Notes: a model not told the origin generated them from the letters alone. A stretch of DNA of 64,000 nt from Herbidospora galbida (GCF_005233835.1 NZ_SZQA01000041.1:1-64000); one strand, 5' to 3'; shown: positions 3,296 to 47,199, numbered from the stretch's first letter. A program made the numbers and translations.

Positions 3296-5337
3296 TCCCC
3301 ATGACCTACACCGAACTGTCCGCGCTCGCGCGGCGCCTCTACCACGTGCTCAACGGAACCGCCCGCGACACGGGCACCCTGGCCGGGGCGAACATCCCCG
3401 ACCTGCGGGTGATGGCGCCCTCGGCCCGTGAGCTGGTCGACAACGCGACGAACGACCGTCATCCCCGCATGGGGACGTGGCCCACCGTGGTCGCGGCCGG
3501 GATCGCGGGCATGGACGCCGAGCTGGCGGCCTGGCTCGCCGAGCGGCAGGGCGCCGTCGCGGTCGCCGAGCAGGCGGTGGTCTTCGGCTGGGACGTCGGA
3601 CGGCGGGCGCGCTTCAGCGAGCTGCTGCGGAGCGTGGCCGAAACCCTGCCCCGCACGCCGATGCCCGCCGGCGGGCTCGACTGGCTGGCGGAGCAGCCCG
3701 GTTACCTCGGCTTCGCCCGCGCCGCGCTGGAGTCGGCCGAGGCCAGGGTCGGCGCGTTACAGGCGGGCGAGATCCCGTACACGACCAGGCTCTTCGACGA
3801 CCCGGAGGTCATGGCGCTCGGCCGGGCCGTCCGGCTGGCGCTCCATCGCGACGAGACGTGGCTGCCCGGCCTGCTCGACCGTCTCGTACGCGGCATCGCG
3901 GTCGCCCCCACCGCGGCCAAGACCCTGCCCTCCCAGGCGCTGCTCTACGAGATCGCCCGCGCGACCGAAGACTTCCCGACCCCCGAGGCGATCTCCGCGC
4001 TGCGCACCGCCGCTCGCATCACCCGGCACGCGGGGGTGCCCAAGGAGCTCGCCAAGAAGTTCAAGCGCATCGAGCCCGCCCTCGCCGAGCGGCTCGACGT
4101 CGCGTTCCGGATGCCCGACGGCCGGCTCCGCGAGACGTTCGGCGAGCACACCGCGGTCATCTCCACCGATGGTGCCGTCGAGCTGTCGTGGTGGCACGGC
4201 GACCGGAGGCTCAAGTCGGTGCCGGCGGCGGTCCGGCGCGATCACCCCGACGACGTCAAGAGGCTGAAAGACCTGGCCAGGCAGGCCGCTCAGCAGCAGG
4301 TCACGCTGGCCAGGGCGCTGGAGGCCGGATACACGAGCCAGACCCCGCCGCCCTACCGCCAGCTGGAGGGCAACCCGGTCACCGACCGCCTGATCTGGGA
4401 GTTCGAGGTCGCGCCCGGCGTCTGGCAGGCGCAGCTCGGGCTGACGGTGCCCGACGTGCCGGTCCGGCTGTGGCATCCGGCGCGGGCCTCGGTCGAGGAG
4501 GTGCGGGCCTGGCGGGAGGTCGTCCAGGACAAGGAGATCCGGCAGCCGTTCAAGCAGGCGTTCCGCGAGGTCTACCTGCTGACCCCCGCCGAGGAGGCGA
4601 CGCGGGTCTACTCCGGCCGGTTCGAGAACCACATCGTCCACTACTCGCAGATCCGCGCGCTGTTCAAAGACCGCGGCTGGACCTCCCGCTACATGGGCTT
4701 CTGGGACGGCGGACACGACGACGGGGAGGCCCGGCGCGTGCTGGCGGGCGGCCAGTGGCGGGCCACCCTGAGCCACCACCTCTACGAGGAGGGCTACGCC
4801 CAGACCTCTGTCGTCCGCTTCCACCGGCGGGCCGGGAGCTCGTGGGAGGAGGCGCCGCTGACGGAGGTCCCGCCGCTGGTCTTCAGCGAGGCGATGCGCG
4901 ACGCCGACCTGTTCGTCGGGGTCAGCTCGATCATGTCCGAGCCCGAGTGGGCCGAGCGGGAACAGGGGGAGCTGCGCCACTACTGGGAGACCAACTCCTT
5001 CGCCGAGCTGTCGTCGTCGGCCGAGGTGCGCCGCGACGCCCTGGCCCGCCTGCTGCCCCGCCTCACCATCGCCGACCGCTGCACCCTGGCGGGCCGCTTC
5101 CTGGTCGTCCGGGGCGACCTGCGCACCTACAAGATTCACCTGGGCTCGGCGAACATCCTGATGGAGCCCAACGACGCCTACCTGTGCATCGTCGCCAAGA
5201 CCACCGCGTCAGGGGGCCTGTTCCTCCCGTTCGAGGAGGACGGCCGCCTGTCGCTGATCCTCAGCAAGGCCTTCCTGCTCGCCGACGACACCGCCATCAC
5301 CGACCCGAGCATCACGCGCCAGATCACGGCGGCCTAG
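3292..5337 (+). CDS. DUF4132 domain-containing protein (second of tandem pair)
   Basis: 681 aa. The start is the ATG at 3292, inside the ATGA overlap with the upstream stop; a second ATG at 3301 (MTYTEL) is possible. It shares with its neighbour the motifs QPFKQAFREVYLLTPAEE (near residue 417) and TYKIHLGSANILMEPNDAY (near residue 612), and the ending ITDPSIT-x-QI, but is about 110 residues shorter at the N-terminus. No transmembrane segment or signal peptide. Two non-identical DUF4132 paralogues in one operon could form a heteromeric complex or reflect neofunctionalisation; this is inference. The stop codon overlaps the stop of a possible small membrane ORF on the other strand. Confidence 0.86.
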   Translation: MIPMTYTELSALARRLYHVLNGTARDTGTLAGANIPDLRVMAPSARELVDNATNDRHPRMGTWPTVVAAGIAGMDAELAAWLAERQGAVAVAEQAVVFGWDVGRRARFSELLRSVAETLPRTPMPAGGLDWLAEQPGYLGFARAALESAEARVGALQAGEIPYTTRLFDDPEVMALGRAVRLALHRDETWLPGLLDRLVRGIAVAPTAAKTLPSQALLYEIARATEDFPTPEAISALRTAARITRHAGVPKELAKKFKRIEPALAERLDVAFRMPDGRLRETFGEHTAVISTDGAVELSWWHGDRRLKSVPAAVRRDHPDDVKRLKDLARQAAQQQVTLARALEAGYTSQTPPPYRQLEGNPVTDRLIWEFEVAPGVWQAQLGLTVPDVPVRLWHPARASVEEVRAWREVVQDKEIRQPFKQAFREVYLLTPAEEATRVYSGRFENHIVHYSQIRALFKDRGWTSRYMGFWDGGHDDGEARRVLAGGQWRATLSHHLYEEGYAQTSVVRFHRRAGSSWEEAPLTEVPPLVFSEAMRDADLFVGVSSIMSEPEWAEREQGELRHYWETNSFAELSSSAEVRRDALARLLPRLTIADRCTLAGRFLVVRGDLRTYKIHLGSANILMEPNDAYLCIVAKTTASGGLFLPFEEDGRLSLILSKAFLLADDTAITDPSITRQITAA

Positions 5338-5432
5338 AGGAACGAGGCGACCAGGTTCACGGCCGACAACAGCGCCGCGCCGGCGAGGCTGACGACCAGG
5401 ACGAGACAGACGGCTTTCACCCAGGGCTTCAC
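5334..5432 (-). CDS. Possible small single-span membrane protein (32 aa)
   Basis: A GTG at 5432 opens a 33-codon frame: a short positive head (VKPWVK) followed by an unbroken hydrophobic stretch (AVCLVLVVSLAGAALLSA, then VNLVASFL) and TAG. That is the composition of a one-helix membrane peptide, not of a random antisense frame. Its stop overlaps the DUF4132 stop tail to tail. The Shine-Dalgarno is weak, and an in-frame GTG four codons later is an alternative start. Function unknown. Confidence 0.38.
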   Translation of the reverse strand: MKPWVKAVCLVLVVSLAGAALLSAVNLVASFL

Positions 5433-5512
5433 CCGGCCATGGTCGGGTGCGGCAGGCCGTAAATCAAATCGCGCCGCCTGCTCGCGTGGTGCAGGCCCAT
5501 GTCACGGAGCGG

Positions 5513-5980
5513 TCAGGGCCTCGCGGTCCGCCCGCGCAGGCGGTCGGCGTGCCGTGCCTGGTTGTCCAGCGCGCGGCGCAGGAAGGTCTCAATGAGTTCG
5601 AGTTCGGTGACGCTGAACCGGAGCAGTTCGGCCCGGGCGTCGTCGGCGATCGGCCCCCAGATCTCCTGAACGGCGCTCCGGCCCGGCGCGGTCAGCCGCA
5701 CCAGAACCCGGCGCCGGTCGGCCGTGTCACGGACCCGCTCGACCAGGCCGGTCCGCTCCAGCCGGTCGATGGCGGTGGTGGCGGCGCCTCCGGTGAGCCC
5801 GGCGGCGGCCGCCAGCTCGCTCGCGGTGAGCGGGCCGCGTGCGGTCAGCCGGCTCAGGCACCTCAGGTCGGTGCGGTTGACGCCGAGGCGCCGGCCTGCG
5901 AGTTCGTCGATGAGGTCGGTGGCATCCTGCAGCTCCTGAACGGCCCTGGCCACGGCCTGGACCCTGAATTCCTTTGACAA
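5513..5980 (-). CDS. MarR-family transcriptional regulator
   Basis: 155 aa winged-helix repressor-type protein. The recognition region is TASELAAAAGLTGGAATTAIDRLERTGLVERV, followed by the wing DTADRRRVLVRLT, typical of MarR proteins, which bind DNA as dimers and respond to small ligands. The start is TTG at 5980: AAAGG lies five bases upstream and the reading gives MSKEFRVQAV; no ATG is available nearby. It diverges from the GNAT gene at 6043, and inverted repeats occupy its own leader, suggesting autoregulation and control of the acetyltransferase. Ligand unknown. Confidence 0.88.
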   Translation of the reverse strand: MSKEFRVQAVARAVQELQDATDLIDELAGRRLGVNRTDLRCLSRLTARGPLTASELAAAAGLTGGAATTAIDRLERTGLVERVRDTADRRRVLVRLTAPGRSAVQEIWGPIADDARAELLRFSVTELELIETFLRRALDNQARHADRLRGRTARP

Positions 5981-41199: not shown

Positions 41200-42174
41200 T
41201 CAGAAGTGCGCCGACCTCGGCTGGTAGGGCTCCTGTAGGGCGGCCAGCTCCTTGTCCGACAGATCGAGCCCGACGGCGGCCAGGGCGTCGTCGATGTGCC
41301 CGTCCTTGGTCGCGCCGATGATGGGCGCGACCATGCCGGGCTGGTGGAGCAGCCAGGCCAGGGCCAGCGTGGCCGGGGCGACCCCGCGCCCGGCCGCCAG
41401 TTCGGCGACCTTGCCCAGGACGTCGGCGTCGCCGGGGCCGCCGTAGAGGAAGCGCTGGCGGTCGCCGTCGCCTTCCTGGCGGGTGGTGTGCTCGTCTTTG
41501 CCGGCGCGGGCCAGCAGGCCCCTGGCCAGGGGGGACCAGGGGATGAGGCCGACGCCCTGGTCGGCGCAGAGCGGGATCATCTCGCGCTCCTCCTCGCGGT
41601 AGAGGAGGTTGTAGTGGTTCTGCATCGAGACGAACTTCGTCCAGCCGTTCTTCTCCGCGACGTGCTGGGCCTTGGCGAACTGCCAGGCGCGCATGGACGA
41701 CGCGCCGATGTAGCGGGCCTTGCCCGACTTCACCACGTCGTGGAGGGCCTCCATCGTCTCTTCGATGGGGGTCTCGTCGTCCCAGCGGTGGACCTGGTAG
41801 AGGTCGACGAAGTCGGTGCCCAGGCGGGTCAGGGAGTCGTCGATGGCGGCCATGATGTGCTTGCGCGACAGGCCCTTGTCGTTGTGGCCCTGGCGGACGG
41901 GGAAGAAGACCTTGGTCGCCAGAACGTAGTCGTCACGGCGCTCGAAGAACTTCCTCAGCAGGTTGCCGGTGACGACCTCCGACATGCCGGCGGAGTAGAC
42001 GTCGGCGGTGTCGAAGAAGGTGACGCCGGCCTCTGCCGCCTGGCGGACCAGGGGTTCCGACTGATCTTCGGGGAGGATCCAGCTCGCGGCCTCACTCGGC
42101 TGGCCGTAGCTCATCATGCCGAGACAGATACGACTGACCTTGAGACCGGTCTGCCCCAAACGTACATATTCCAT
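41200..42174 (-). CDS. Aldo/keto reductase
   Basis: 324 aa (beta/alpha)8 NADPH-dependent reductase. The catalytic tetrad is visible: Asp and Tyr in FFDTADVYSAGMSE (about 50-55), Lys in VLATKVFF, His in YQVHRWDDETP. The phosphate-binding C-terminal region is PIIGATKDGHIDDALAAVGL. It resembles the YajO/IolS-like AKR11-12 group. Substrate unknown. Convergent with the cold-shock gene, 7 bp apart. Confidence 0.9.
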   Translation of the reverse strand: MEYVRLGQTGLKVSRICLGMMSYGQPSEAASWILPEDQSEPLVRQAAEAGVTFFDTADVYSAGMSEVVTGNLLRKFFERRDDYVLATKVFFPVRQGHNDKGLSRKHIMAAIDDSLTRLGTDFVDLYQVHRWDDETPIEETMEALHDVVKSGKARYIGASSMRAWQFAKAQHVAEKNGWTKFVSMQNHYNLLYREEEREMIPLCADQGVGLIPWSPLARGLLARAGKDEHTTRQEGDGDRQRFLYGGPGDADVLGKVAELAAGRGVAPATLALAWLLHQPGMVAPIIGATKDGHIDDALAAVGLDLSDKELAALQEPYQPRSAHF

Positions 42175-42184
42175 GACCTGCAGA

Positions 42185-42245
42185 CTAAGTCCCGTGTCTG
42201 ATCATGCTGTCCGCACCCGCCGTGACGGCTTCCCCGGGTGCTGCA
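42185..42245 (-). pseudogene. Stranded 3' end of an epimerase-type gene
   Basis: On the minus strand the frame ends GEAVTAGADSMIRHGT and TAG at 42185. The intact epimerase at 45234 ends EEAVTAGADSMIR followed by a different tail. Bases 42198-42233 match 45259-45294 at 34 of 36 positions in the same orientation. Upstream of codon GEA the similarity stops, so only the last ~18 codons are present. It forms the left boundary of the segment 42.2-45.3 kb. Confidence 0.6.
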
Positions 42246-43303
42246 GTGGCGATCCTGTCAAGGAGTGCAGGAGACGATCATTGCGCCGGAGGAGCGGCAG
42301 ACCTTCCGCGAATGTTCGACGCGTGAAAAGGCCACTTCGTCCGGCGGAACGGCGAACCGGGTGCGGCTCATTCGCCGGACCACCGAGGCGCGCGTTACCT
42401 ACTGATGGGCGTCCTGCGGTGCGGAAACCCCGAGCCGGATGGGTTCATCTCTGGAAAATTGTGCGCTGTGCTTCCTCGGGCGAAATAAGCTCATACACGA
42501 TCAGGAAATTGCGCGTGACTACTTTTGAATTCTTAATGAGAGATCGGGTGTGCGGCGTGGACGGGCCCACTCTTGGCGCCGAGCTGGTAGAGGGTGAGAA
42601 GGAGCATGCCTGCCGGTGACCGGGTGCGGGGGGTCTGTCTCTCCTTGCGACAAGCGGCGTAACCATGCGCCGCGCCCGTCACCGTGGCCGCGACCGTCGA
42701 CGCCCACGCCGATTCGACATTCTCGAATGCCGGTGAGAAATCCGTCGATCGGCCGGGAAAGTCCACGAATCGAAACCCTTGACAAGGTGTCTCGCATTTA
42801 TCAAAGCTGTGATCAGGTACAAAATCGAAGAGGATTCGAGTTATTCGAATGGTGACGACAGGAATGCCGACGACGAGGATTGAGGTGGTCGAGCTGCTGG
42901 AGACGGCGGCCTCCGCCGGCACAGCGGGTGCGGGCCCCTGCGATCTGGCAGCGCGTCCCCTGTCGCGGTCAGCACGGCCCACCGCCACGCCGCATATGGG
43001 GTCAAGCAGACCGAAGCCGAGGCGAGGAACTACGGGTACGGACCCACGACGACGAAGGCATGTCGGTCACGGCCAGCATGTTCACCACCCCCCTCGGCCA
43101 GGACGTGACGGCCGCCCTGGTCGACGACTCGACCGGAAGCACGCTGACGGGTGCGGCTCACGGGTGACGCGTACGTCTCGAACCCCGACGAGTGAACCGA
43201 ACCAACGCACATCGGCGCCCGTGACGGGGGCCGCGCCGCACGCGCGGCCCCGAGGCCCGGAGCGGCACGAACGGACGCCTTGCTCAACGGAGAAGGAAGC
43301 GCA
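42246..43303. other. Gene-poor region with locally low GC
   Basis: No convincing intact gene in about 1,060 bases. Stretches around 42480-42545 and 42770-42860 are distinctly AT-richer than the rest of the window (for example AATTCTTAATGAGAG near 42530). Open frames here on both strands have compositions of shadow frames. One short plus-strand run, RVRTHDDEGMSVTASMFTTP then LGQDVTAALVDDSTG (about 43035-43140), reads like protein but lacks a start and context, and may be a gene remnant. The right end supplies the SD of the gene at 43304. Confidence 0.5.
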
Positions 43304-45181
43304 ATGACAGCAACACATCGCAATCGCGGACGCCGCTCGGCCGTGGCGGCCCTGAGCGTGGTCACGCTGGGGGCATCTCTGCTCCTCGGCGCGGTACCGG
43401 CCGCCGCGGACGGGCCCGTCGCCTCGATCGTCTTAGGCGAGGTCAACCAGGAGACCGGTCTCCGGCAGATCGAGCAGGGTGACGGCACGACCGCACCCGT
43501 GACGGTCGGCGGGCGGAGCGCACGCAGGACCGTGCAGACCTCGGCGCCGGCGCAGCACATGTACTTCCAGGTCGACGACGCGATCGCCTTCGACGGCGCG
43601 TACGTCGCGTGTCTGCAGGTCGAGTACTTCGACGAGGGCGGTGCCACCTTCCGCGTCCAGTACGACTCGACCAGCAGCGCGTACGCCGGGACGGGTTCGG
43701 TGAACCGCACCGGGTCGAACACGTGGAAGACGGCGGGCTTCGAGCTGATGGACGCCCGGTTCGCCAACCGCGAGAACGGCGGCGCCGACTTCCGCGTCGA
43801 GGCCGGCACGACCGGGGTGACCTTCCACAGCGTGAAGCTGACGATCATCCAGGACGACGACGGCGTGACCCCGCCGTGCGCCGCCGCCGAGCCCGAGCCG
43901 GAACCCGAGCCCATCCGCTGGCGGCTCAAGTACGACGAGCCGTTCAACAAGAAGATCCGCACCGAGGCCAGCCCATGGGTGCTCGACGACTACAGCGACC
44001 CGGTCGACGACTACAACGACGACAACGGCGACCTCTACCGCCTTCAGCTCGGTCCCGAGTTCGACGCGTCGATGGCGACCATGCGGACGTACCGGCAGGA
44101 GACGGAGTTCGGCAAGGACGGCTGGCTCACGGCGTCCCTCTCCACGCGCGAGACCGGCGGGCGGGTCGACGACAGCTACACCGACACCGCCGAACGTCCG
44201 TCGATCAAGACGGAGAAGCTGGACACCGTGGGCGCCGTCGCCAACATCACCGTGCCTCACTACACGGGTGGCGCGATCATCCGCAACACCGAGCCGCTGC
44301 CGAAGTACTACCGCATCGAGTACGAGCTCAAGACGCTCGACTTCGGCGGCCTGCGTAACGGCTCGCTGTTCTACGACGGCAAGTACAACGGGTACAAGCT
44401 CGGGGAGTGCAAGACGTTCTACCCGTGGGTCAGCAACCCGAACGACATCGACCCGGCCGACCCCTGCGCCACCCGCTCGGTGCGGGAGGACAGCAACGAG
44501 GCGTACAACGCGTTCCACTTCATGTCGATCCTCGACTTCCCGGCGATGCCCCGGAACCTGGCGATGTACCACTGGCACCGCAAGGTGCTCATGGACCAGT
44601 TCAGCCCGGCCCCGTCCCGCAACACCAACGGCTACGACGTCTGCAACTCGCTGACCGGTCAGAAGTACCCCTGGGACCAGAGCAACAAGACCACGGTGAA
44701 CATGCTCTACTTCACGGGTTCGCTCGGCCAGTCGCAGACGTTCGTGACGAGCTGCGACCGCCGGCCGGTCTCCGGCGTGCAGAAGTCGGCCGTGGAGCTG
44801 CAGCCCGAGCTGATGCCCCACAAGGACTACGCGTTCGCCATCGAGCGCACCCCGGCGGGTTACACGATGGAGGTCAGCGGCGTCTTCAAGCACGTCGGCA
44901 AGCAGACCTACCGGTTCACCCGGGGCTTCATCGACGACGACGCCGGCGTGATCGGGGCGAACGTCCCGATCTTCCACTACAACGTGGACGCCTCGGAGTA
45001 CAACGGCCAGTTCAACACCTCGCACCGCGCGTCGGGCGCGTTCGGCTCCAAGACGTGGGACAACCAGTGGCCGGCCGGCTCGGCCTACCCCGACTACTTC
45101 GTCATCGGTGAGCCGTACACGAACGTCGGCGAGGGCCAGGCCCGCATCGACAACATCCGGCTGTACGTGCCGAAGGACTAG
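43304..45181 (+). CDS. Large secreted protein of unknown function with CBM-like N-terminal domain
   Basis: 625 aa. ATG 43304 follows GAAGGA by six bases. Signal peptide MTATHRNRGRRSAVAALSVV... ending AAADG (about 35). Residues about 38-180 form a beta-sandwich of a kind common in actinobacterial glycosidases (VTVGGRSARRTVQTSAPAQH, NTWKTAGFELMDARFANREN, GGADFRVEAGTTGVTFHSV). A short Glu-Pro linker (EPEPEPEP) leads to a 420-residue domain with aromatic-rich strands (KYYRIEYELKTLDFGGLRNG, PRNLAMYHWHRKVLMDQF, RIDNIRLYVPKD) and several cysteines, in the style of a concanavalin-like jelly roll. I know no family name for it. A polysaccharide lyase, hydrolase or binding protein is possible. Confidence 0.78.
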   Translation: MTATHRNRGRRSAVAALSVVTLGASLLLGAVPAAADGPVASIVLGEVNQETGLRQIEQGDGTTAPVTVGGRSARRTVQTSAPAQHMYFQVDDAIAFDGAYVACLQVEYFDEGGATFRVQYDSTSSAYAGTGSVNRTGSNTWKTAGFELMDARFANRENGGADFRVEAGTTGVTFHSVKLTIIQDDDGVTPPCAAAEPEPEPEPIRWRLKYDEPFNKKIRTEASPWVLDDYSDPVDDYNDDNGDLYRLQLGPEFDASMATMRTYRQETEFGKDGWLTASLSTRETGGRVDDSYTDTAERPSIKTEKLDTVGAVANITVPHYTGGAIIRNTEPLPKYYRIEYELKTLDFGGLRNGSLFYDGKYNGYKLGECKTFYPWVSNPNDIDPADPCATRSVREDSNEAYNAFHFMSILDFPAMPRNLAMYHWHRKVLMDQFSPAPSRNTNGYDVCNSLTGQKYPWDQSNKTTVNMLYFTGSLGQSQTFVTSCDRRPVSGVQKSAVELQPELMPHKDYAFAIERTPAGYTMEVSGVFKHVGKQTYRFTRGFIDDDAGVIGANVPIFHYNVDASEYNGQFNTSHRASGAFGSKTWDNQWPAGSAYPDYFVIGEPYTNVGEGQARIDNIRLYVPKD

Positions 45182-45211
45182 GCACGGGAAGGTCGCGATC
45201 GAAGTGACGCA

Positions 45212-45246
45212 GCCGCGCCCTTGGGACCTGCACTCAAGGGCGCGGC
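45212..45246. terminator. Bidirectional terminator at the convergent gene end
   Basis: GCCGCGCCCTTG (45212-45223) pairs perfectly with CAAGGGCGCGGC (45235-45246), loop 11. It lies 30 bases after the secreted-protein stop and overlaps the last codons of the convergent epimerase gene. Confidence 0.65.
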
Positions 45247-46229
45247 CTGCGCTCGGGCCTGATCATGCTGTCCGCGCCCGCCGTGACGGCCTCCTCCGAG
45301 GCGCGTGGCCGCCACCCCAGAACCCGGCGGGCCTTCTCGCTGGAGACCTTCTTGGCCGGGTCGAGCTCGGCGGCGTCGGGCGGGAACAGACCGGCGATCC
45401 GAGCGGCCAGGTCCGGGGTGGACGCTTCGAGATGGTCGCTCAGGAGGGCCCCGATCTGCCGCACCGTGATGGCCGGTCCGCCGGAGAGCAGGAACCGGTG
45501 CCCCGCCGCGGCAGGTTCGGTCATGGCGCGGACGTGGGCGCTCGCGACGTCGCGCACGTCGACGATCGGGATCCACAGGCCGGGGGAGCCGGGCGCCGTC
45601 CCGTCGAGGATCAGCCGGATGATGCGGTTGGCCCCGGAGATCTCCTCACCCATGATCGGACCCATCACCGCGACCGGCTGGAGGGTGACGAGTTCCATCG
45701 GACCCCCGGCCGCGAAGTCCCAGGCCGCCCGCTCGGCGAGGGTCTTGGCCCGGCCGTAGGCGTCCATGCCGGGGCCGTCGAGGACGGACCAGTCGTCTTC
45801 GGTGAAGGTGTGGTCGGTGGGCGGGTGGCCGAAGCCGACGGCGTGGAAGGCGGAGGTGAGCACGACCCGCTTGACCCCGGCGTCGCGGGCGGCCCGCAGC
45901 ACGCGCAGGGTGCCCTCCCGGGCGGGGGCGATCACGTCGTTCTCGTCGGCCACCTCGCCGAGGCGCACGGGGGAGGCCACGTGGAGGACGAAGTCGACGC
46001 CGGCGACGGCGTCGGCCCAGCCGTCGTCGGCCAGCAGGTCGGCCGGGACGAAGGTCAGGTCGTCGCCGTTCACCATGCCGGCGTCGGCGAGCACCGCGCG
46101 TACGGCGCTCTCCCGGGCCGATGACCGCACGGTGGTGCGGACGGCGTAACCCTGGTCGAGGAGCTGAAGGATGCAGTGTCCGGCGATGAAGCCGGATCCG
46201 CCGGTGACGAGGACACGTTGCTGACTCAT
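45234..46229 (-). CDS. NAD(P)-dependent epimerase/dihydroflavonol-reductase-like SDR
   Basis: 331 aa extended short-chain dehydrogenase. Rossmann motif VTGGSGFIAGHCI (about 8-20), catalytic Tyr-x3-Lys in MDAYGRAKTLAE (about 160), and IPIVDVRDVASAHVRAM typical of the dihydroflavonol reductase/aldehyde reductase branch. I chose ATG 46229 (MSQQRVLV); longer frames upstream are not protein-like. It diverges from the XRE regulator at 46333, a common regulator-target layout. The 3' end (45259-45294) is duplicated at 42198-42233. Confidence 0.9.
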   Translation of the reverse strand: MSQQRVLVTGGSGFIAGHCILQLLDQGYAVRTTVRSSARESAVRAVLADAGMVNGDDLTFVPADLLADDGWADAVAGVDFVLHVASPVRLGEVADENDVIAPAREGTLRVLRAARDAGVKRVVLTSAFHAVGFGHPPTDHTFTEDDWSVLDGPGMDAYGRAKTLAERAAWDFAAGGPMELVTLQPVAVMGPIMGEEISGANRIIRLILDGTAPGSPGLWIPIVDVRDVASAHVRAMTEPAAAGHRFLLSGGPAITVRQIGALLSDHLEASTPDLAARIAGLFPPDAAELDPAKKVSSEKARRVLGWRPRASEEAVTAGADSMIRPERRPRP

Positions 46230-46332: not shown

Positions 46333-47199
46333 ATGAGCGTCGAGCCGAACCTGCTGGGCGAATACCTCCGTGCCCGGCGCGAACTCGTGACCCCGGAGCA
46401 GGTGGGCATCCCGTCCCTGGGAACGCGGCGGGTGCCGGGGCTGCGGCGCGAGGAGGTCGCGATGCTCGCGGGGATCAGCGCCGAGTACTACCTGCGGCTG
46501 GAGCAGGGCCGTGATCGCCGTCCGTCGGTGCAGGTCCTGCAGTCGATCGCCCGGGTGCTGCGGCTCGACGACGACTCCTACCTCCTCGGCCTCGCCGAGG
46601 AGAAGCCCCGCCGTGCCCGCAGGCGGCCCCGGAAGGAGGTCGTGCCGGCGAGCACCGCGAGGCTGGTGGCGTCACTGCCGTATCCCGCGTTCGTCGAGGG
46701 CCGTTACCTCGACGTCCTCGCCGCCAACCCGCTCGCCACGGCGGTGTCACCCCGGCTGAGGGTGGGCGGCAACCGGCTGCGCGACGTCTTCCTCGACCCG
46801 GCCGAGCAGGCGCTCTTCCCCGACTGGGAGCGCGCCTCGGCGGTGCTGCTCGCGGGGTTCCGTCAGTCGGTCGGCAGCGACATCGACGATCCGCGGTTCA
46901 TCGAACTCGTGGGAGAACTCTCCCTCGCCAGCGAGCACTTCCGCCGGTTGTGGGGACGCCACGACGTCGCGGGGCGGCTCGGCGCGACGCTCACCTTCAA
47001 CCATCCCCAGGTGGGAAAGCTCAGGCTCGACCGCGAGAAACTGGCCGTCAGCGGCACCGACGGCCTGATGCTCGTCATCTACCATCCCGAGCCGGGCGGC
47101 GAAGGCGCGGAGAAACTCGCCCTGCTGGCCTCCGCCTCGGTCACGCCGGTCAGATCGTCGGCTCCAGGATGTCGTACTGACGGTACGGCAGCGGAGTGA
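46333..47199 (+). CDS. XRE-family regulator with MmyB-like ligand domain
   Basis: 288 aa. N-terminal HTH: LLGEYLRARRELVTPEQVGI, then RRVPGLRREEVAMLAGISAE and YYLRLEQGRDRRPSVQVLQS. The C-terminal domain (about 115-275) is the MmyB-like fold with VLAANPLATAVSP, WERASAVLLAGFRQSVG, FRRLWGRHDV and RLDREKLAVSGTDGLMLVIY, which binds small hydrophobic ligands in homologues. It probably regulates the divergent epimerase gene. The last 50 bases overlap the gene at 47150 on the other strand. Confidence 0.89.
   Translation: MSVEPNLLGEYLRARRELVTPEQVGIPSLGTRRVPGLRREEVAMLAGISAEYYLRLEQGRDRRPSVQVLQSIARVLRLDDDSYLLGLAEEKPRRARRRPRKEVVPASTARLVASLPYPAFVEGRYLDVLAANPLATAVSPRLRVGGNRLRDVFLDPAEQALFPDWERASAVLLAGFRQSVGSDIDDPRFIELVGELSLASEHFRRLWGRHDVAGRLGATLTFNHPQVGKLRLDREKLAVSGTDGLMLVIYHPEPGGEGAEKLALLASASVTPVRSSAPGCRTDGTAAE

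Follow-up and report, generated by a model that had tools for sequence, protein, structure and literature searches.

The window analysed here is a 64,000-nucleotide stretch of DNA from Herbidospora galbida (Streptosporangiaceae), in which a segment of about 3 kb is flanked by two short direct repeats made from the 3′ end of a gene. Some genomic islands, elements that integrate at tRNA genes or gene ends, duplicate the 3′ end of a gene on insertion, and the original prediction, made from the sequence alone, had taken the repeat pair as the footprint of a site-specific or homology-driven insertion. The locus raises the question of whether the repeats are the borders of an inserted element or have another origin. 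The comparison set consisted of six sister species, H. yilanensis, H. sakaeratensis, H. cretacea, H. daliensis, H. solisilvae, and H. mongoliensis, picked via records carrying the same secreted-protein gene as the window.

The direct repeats and the adjacent genes

A repeat search of the window identified a 41-nt direct repeat (42193-42233 and 45254-45294, 90% identity), the core of which (42199-42233 and 45260-45294) is found on the same strand in both copies with two differing bases, both transitions. A pattern covering both core variants and allowing up to three mismatches occurred twice in the window and in none of 100 shuffles. Together, these results confirmed the 36-base, same-orientation repeat with two differences that had been predicted at 42198-42233 and 45259-45294. 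The right copy (45260-45294, minus strand) is, as anticipated, the 3′ end of an intact gene of the NAD-dependent epimerase/dehydratase family (SDR; 45234-46229, minus strand; Pfam PF01370, Epimerase), whose final codons run into the terminator of the cassette described below. The left copy is part of a 57-nt relic of an SDR 3′ end (42181-42237, minus strand) that includes the junction of an operon formed by an aldo/keto reductase (AKR) gene and SDR. When the minus strand is read, the left copy encodes ..GEAVTAGADSMIRHGT followed by a stop codon, i.e. the same SDR C-terminus as the right copy, in agreement with its earlier description as an orphan. The only point in favor of a chance similarity or an unrelated short repeat is that the repeat is just 36 bp long. 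This explanation was ruled out and retains a negligible probability, as zero occurrences are expected by chance, both copies encode the SDR C-terminus, and the left copy corresponds to a gene junction known from relatives.

The AKR gene to the left of the segment (41200-42174, minus strand; Pfam PF00248, E 2e-76) is intact in the window. To the right, SDR adjoins a divergent gene for an XRE/MmyB-like regulator (46333-47199, plus strand; Pfam MLTR_LBD and HTH_31), and this SDR-XRE pair is kept together in all seven Herbidospora species as well as in Acrocarpospora. No tRNA gene was found in the window, and a PADLOC search gave no useful result.

A serine integrase gene fragment next to the left copy

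The segment had been thought to contain no integrase, which proved incorrect. Immediately inward of the left copy lies part of a large serine recombinase gene, now a pseudogene (42247-42446, plus strand). This fragment corresponds to codons about 262-329, or 265-329 in a separate comparison, includes an in-frame stop and a frameshift, and is followed by weak similarity up to about position 42520. The fragment shows 79% DNA identity to an intact relative (E 6e-43; tblastn E 3e-17), with a bit score of 161 versus a maximum of 37 among the other window segments tried. Nucleotides 42234-42630 used as a DNA query matched H. mongoliensis DNA beside a stub of SDR at 90%, and matched at 79-83% a gene located inside an insertion in the AKR gene of H. 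yilanensis, H. daliensis, and H. mongoliensis, which is where the intact relative resides. The arrangement of an integrase fragment next to an SDR stub was found in two species only, the window genome and H. mongoliensis. No further integrase pieces were found in the window.

In these three sister species a 9-12 kb element, with an 8-bp repeat, GTTGTAGT, at both ends, interrupts AKR at a single site; the same 8 bp, the empty target core, are found at positions 41608-41615 within the AKR gene of the window. The element codes for a 517-aa serine recombinase (Resolvase, Recombinase, and weak zinc-ribbon domains) next to a RepSA protein, which had no match in the window when used as query. It is located at L123/L082 in H. 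yilanensis (G001:C14:314249-323653), with equivalents on G004:C1 in H. daliensis and G006:C11 in H. mongoliensis. An AKR-family gene is also part of the element; the ORFs scanned in it included no FtsK-type Tra gene. Actinomycete integrative and conjugative elements (AICEs) that use a serine integrase and reside in protein-coding genes have been described (PMC3218068). The elements found in AKR are similar to them in combining a serine integrase with RepSA, and the window holds a fragment of a related integrase gene; unlike an AICE, however, the window segment has only about 200 nt of broken integrase and no match to the RepSA of the AKR element.

The integrase-fragment region is 88-90% identical between the window and H. 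mongoliensis, a value higher than the 72-80% third-codon identity of the vertically inherited neighbors, which suggests that this block was probably exchanged between species.

The secreted-protein cassette

Most of the segment consists of a shortened copy of a cassette (42608-45257, plus strand; limits taken from alignments with copies in five other genera) composed of an IclR/DUF5107-like gene, broken in the window, a gene for a secreted protein, and a terminator. The prediction of one large secreted protein of unknown family was borne out. The ORF (43304-45181, plus strand) encodes 625 amino acids with an N-terminal signal sequence recognized by eye, has no Pfam, NCBIfam, or PDB-sequence match, and is 94-96% identical at the DNA level in the seven Herbidospora species. 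Structure prediction with AlphaFold from 16 sequences failed (mean pLDDT of 30). An ORF scan of the segment revealed no further large gene-like ORF. A paralogue of the C-terminal part of the protein, 48% identical and also of no known family, is encoded elsewhere in the window genome (G000:C35:83540-84862, L023) and is present in every Herbidospora species searched.

The remains of the companion gene (42819-43164, plus strand) have a large internal deletion, with tblastn identities of 70% and 85% at the two ends. The similarity of the encoded product to IclR is significant, while that to DUF5107 reaches only E 0.028. This gene is uninterrupted in Streptosporangium subroseum and Acrocarpospora corrugata and frameshifted in one genome; elsewhere it is internally deleted or nearly lost, with varied end points, and the secreted-protein gene is open everywhere (L096-L109). 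The low G+C content that had been noted over about 1 kb was verified (about 0.62 at 42.25-43.0 kb versus about 0.70 in the flanks), but this supposedly gene-poor kilobase contains what is left of two broken genes. At the right end the cassette is closed by a strong hairpin (45205-45255; −37.4 kcal/mol, z −6.3) that is conserved in the cassettes of other genera and is probably a terminator serving the convergent secreted-protein and SDR genes.

The secreted-protein gene is present in all seven Herbidospora species and in Acrocarpospora, Streptosporangium, Sphaerisporangium, Microtetraspora, and Planotetraspora. Homology among copies of the cassette extends up to 2.4 kb upstream of this gene and ends about 130 bp past its stop codon. 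The third-codon-position identity of the window gene is 90.7% to that of Acrocarpospora (G033) and 91.4% to that of a Microtetraspora genome (G015); the value for the XRE gene, window versus the same Acrocarpospora genome, is 69.2%. The identity of about 91% to two other genera is most straightforwardly read as horizontal spread of the cassette, strong selection at synonymous sites being the formal alternative. The secreted-gene tree departs from the species tree, with H. yilanensis grouping with other genera, and in H. sakaeratensis and H. daliensis the cassette is found elsewhere in the genome, at two different places. In the reading favored below, the cassette has been exchanged at this locus as well as spread among related genera.

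In two Sphaerisporangium genomes the cassette has a tRNA-Arg(CCT) gene on its right side, at a distance of 0.3 and 5.3 kb, and in a third genome a tRNA-Arg(ACG) gene is 0.2 kb from it (L104:12183-12256, L105:17215-17288, and L106:3726-3799). On the left, half-tRNA-Arg remnants are adjacent to the cassette in Streptosporangium subroseum and Sphaerisporangium corydalis (loci L102 and L106); tRNA-Arg genes or remnants were counted near the cassette in four genomes. This proximity suggests, but does not prove, that the cassette was transported in the past by tRNA-targeting elements. Searches with the RepSA and the serine integrase encoded by the AKR element found neither in the DNA flanking the cassettes of other genera, which was covered for up to 10 kb. 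A more specific proposal, which we regard as doubtful, is that the cassette is a non-autonomous mobile unit of the Streptosporangiaceae, with a two-gene cargo and fairly constant ends, that trans-acting integrases would have brought repeatedly to sites next to tRNA-Arg genes, repeatedly losing the regulatory partner and keeping the secreted-protein gene.

If the cassette itself behaved as a transposon, the 36-bp repeat could be its target duplication. The location of the cassette does vary among species and genera, the right ends being similar, but scans for ORFs and inverted repeats revealed neither a transposase ORF nor matching terminal inverted repeats, a target duplication of 36 bp would be long, and the integrase fragment plus about 160 bp of other DNA separate the left copy from the start of the cassette. 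We consider this explanation highly improbable.

Organization of the locus in Herbidospora

The gene order, in the orientation of the window, is polX-PaaK-CSP-AKR-(...)-SDR-XRE-nextR1-RicB, and the DNA found between AKR and SDR or nextR1 differs among species. In H. solisilvae AKR is followed by the cassette, a 233-nt 5′ fragment of a second AKR, a 3-4 kb block, and SDR-XRE; in H. yilanensis by the cassette, a 53-65 nt AKR fragment, and SDR-XRE; and in H. daliensis by the 3-4 kb block and SDR-XRE. The H. mongoliensis locus includes AKR, the SDR stub, the integrase fragment, the cassette, an AKR fragment, the 3-4 kb block, and nextR1, and that of H. cretacea only AKR, the cassette, and nextR1; both species keep SDR-XRE elsewhere in the genome. 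Three species, H. solisilvae, H. yilanensis, and H. mongoliensis, have AKR fragments beyond the right end of the cassette. In H. daliensis the 3-4 kb block codes for a PNP-family phosphorylase, a protein without Pfam match, and a NUDIX/NrtR-like protein. This block, with its PNP_UDP_1-family and NUDIX/NrtR-like genes, is only about 76% alike among the three species that have it (G004 L091, G005 L083, G006 L084).

H. sakaeratensis has an AKR remnant, a DUF433/PIN gene pair, and an intact AKR joined directly to SDR-XRE. The pair, coding for DUF433/MerR-like and PIN-like (DUF5615) proteins, is 96% identical to that of H. yilanensis (L123:4688-5792; L090, reverse strand, in H. sakaeratensis). In both species it is bracketed by AKR 3′-end repeats of about 140 nt, an indication that partial gene duplication around modules recurs at this locus.

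A species tree based on polX, PaaK, nextR1, and RicB had the topology ((cretacea,mongoliensis),((sakaeratensis,daliensis),(window genome,(yilanensis,solisilvae)))), with a support of 93/94 for the grouping of the window genome with H. yilanensis and H. solisilvae. Both main clades of the genus include species with the cassette at this locus.

An empty site, with AKR followed directly by a single epimerase gene, had been predicted to exist in a relative, and H. sakaeratensis has it: the joined flanks of the window, through the left copy and then from the end of the right copy, align to its AKR-SDR-XRE region as one unbroken stretch of 2,224 bp with 84% identity. As H. sakaeratensis is nested within the genus and the cassette is found at the locus in both main branches, its arrangement may be derived by loss. 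That H. sakaeratensis represents a simple pre-insertion ancestor was rejected on the basis of the species tree and of the AKR remnant that it carries besides the intact AKR.

Origin of the left copy

The start of AKR, followed by GACCTGCAGACTAAGTCC and the SDR 3′ end, is common only to the window left copy, the H. mongoliensis stub, and the intact pair of H. sakaeratensis, to whose contiguous AKR-SDR junction the relic at 42181-42237 is 88% identical. The sequence upstream of the other AKR copies that retain a 5′ end is different and contains CGACCCTAGA or a close variant. The H. mongoliensis stub, homologous to the relic, is longer, at least 120 nt with indels, and there is no SDR on the other side of the cassette. 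In this species the SDR homology (5314-5436 of the reversed locus L084) directly meets the integrase homology (5418-5656). The window has a smaller version of the same fusion, with SDR extending to about 42237-42250 and the integrase starting at 42247, so that about 57 nt of junction and stub are kept before the integrase fragment.

The left copy and the H. mongoliensis stub share GGCTTCC, while the intact SDR genes compared, including the right copy, have a C in place of that T. A recent duplication of the genome's own SDR as the source of the left copy was rejected because of this shared diagnostic base. Although the tree of AKR copies from the seven species was poorly resolved, the N-terminal half of the window AKR is 92.9% identical to that of H. 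sakaeratensis versus 89.2% and 89.7% to those of its sister species, and the window SDR follows the species tree. These two observations would fit an AKR-SDR end to the left of the cassette that was imported or recombined.

Site-specific insertion or relic of a duplicated operon

If a serine-integrase element with an attP carrying the SDR 3′ end had inserted there, the left copy, still joined to AKR, would be attL, the right copy would be attR restoring SDR, and the element would have decayed to the integrase fragment and its cargo. The collinearity of the joined flanks with H. sakaeratensis and the inward orientation of the integrase fragment beside the left copy, as in the related AKR element, favor this explanation. 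As in islands integrating at gene 3′ ends, a gene 3′-end direct repeat is found at both borders, with an intact gene on one side, an empty-type site in a relative, and, in two species only, an integrase fragment inside. In contrast to such islands, the length duplicated is not constant across species, a truncated integrase is joined to the stub, and the cassette occurs in other species without a stub. A crossover site of constant extent was not found, since the H. mongoliensis stub exceeds the window repeat, has indels, and lacks an SDR partner on the right. Furthermore, the cassette lies beside AKR in three sister species with neither the SDR stub or repeat nor the integrase fragment, the 8-bp core used by the related integrase lies in AKR and not in SDR, and at the diagnostic base the left copy agrees with the H. 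mongoliensis stub and differs from the right copy, its presumed twin. We therefore regard site-specific insertion as unlikely, although it deserves consideration.

We favor, with moderate confidence, the interpretation that the 36-bp repeat is what remains of an AKR-SDR operon that was duplicated in part, at a recombination hotspot containing decayed mobile DNA, and not an attachment or target-site duplication. The clean empty site of H. sakaeratensis and the inward-reading integrase at the left copy count against it. The junction homologies, the integrase fragment, the empty-type site, and the spread of the cassette are what it builds on; the order of events and recombination between AKR and SDR copies as their cause are inferred from a comparison of seven Herbidospora species, none of whose genomes has the full intermediate. 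A copy of the end of the SDR-AKR operon would have come to lie to the left of the cassette, and its SDR would have been cut down along with a neighboring serine-integrase gene, leaving a stub fused to an integrase fragment. In the window genome the stub would have shrunk further, to about 36-57 nt. The functional SDR-XRE pair lies to the right of the cassette, with the tail of SDR now running into the cassette terminator, and the 36-bp repeat would be the remaining sequence common to the two SDR copies. The rearrangements may have occurred by stepwise homologous or illegitimate recombination between AKR and SDR copies, perhaps aided by integrative elements, and followed by deletion. This mechanism is supported by the recurrence, in H. 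yilanensis and H. sakaeratensis, of modules inserted between partial copies of AKR. Modules bracketed by pieces of the recipient's genes, recurring at one locus, are also a feature of homology-facilitated illegitimate recombination and partial tandem duplication, although here the mechanism is deduced from anatomy.

The idea of an insertion footprint thus survives in part: the segment does behave as inserted DNA when compared to H. sakaeratensis, but the longer H. mongoliensis stub without a right SDR, the shared diagnostic base, and the three species without the repeat argue that the repeat is not the insertion's own footprint. A left copy belonging to a longer paralogue, or a segment ancestral in the genus, had been named as evidence against that idea, and part of this was found in the stub of at least 120 nt in H. 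mongoliensis and in the presence of the cassette in both main branches. The suggestion of a decayed element or a cassette moved by recombination agrees with the decayed integrase fragment and the horizontally spread cassette.

In our best reading the segment is ordinary in kind and reflects earlier shuffling of genes, not a mobile element that still works. It illustrates that a clean-looking direct repeat can be a leftover of gene duplication and decay instead of an insertion footprint. At this actinobacterial hotspot the same two genes, or the space between them, have received an integrative element, a toxin-antitoxin-like pair, and a secreted-protein cassette that has been widely exchanged. 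The cassette, highly conserved after its horizontal spread, would be a reasonable target for biochemical study.
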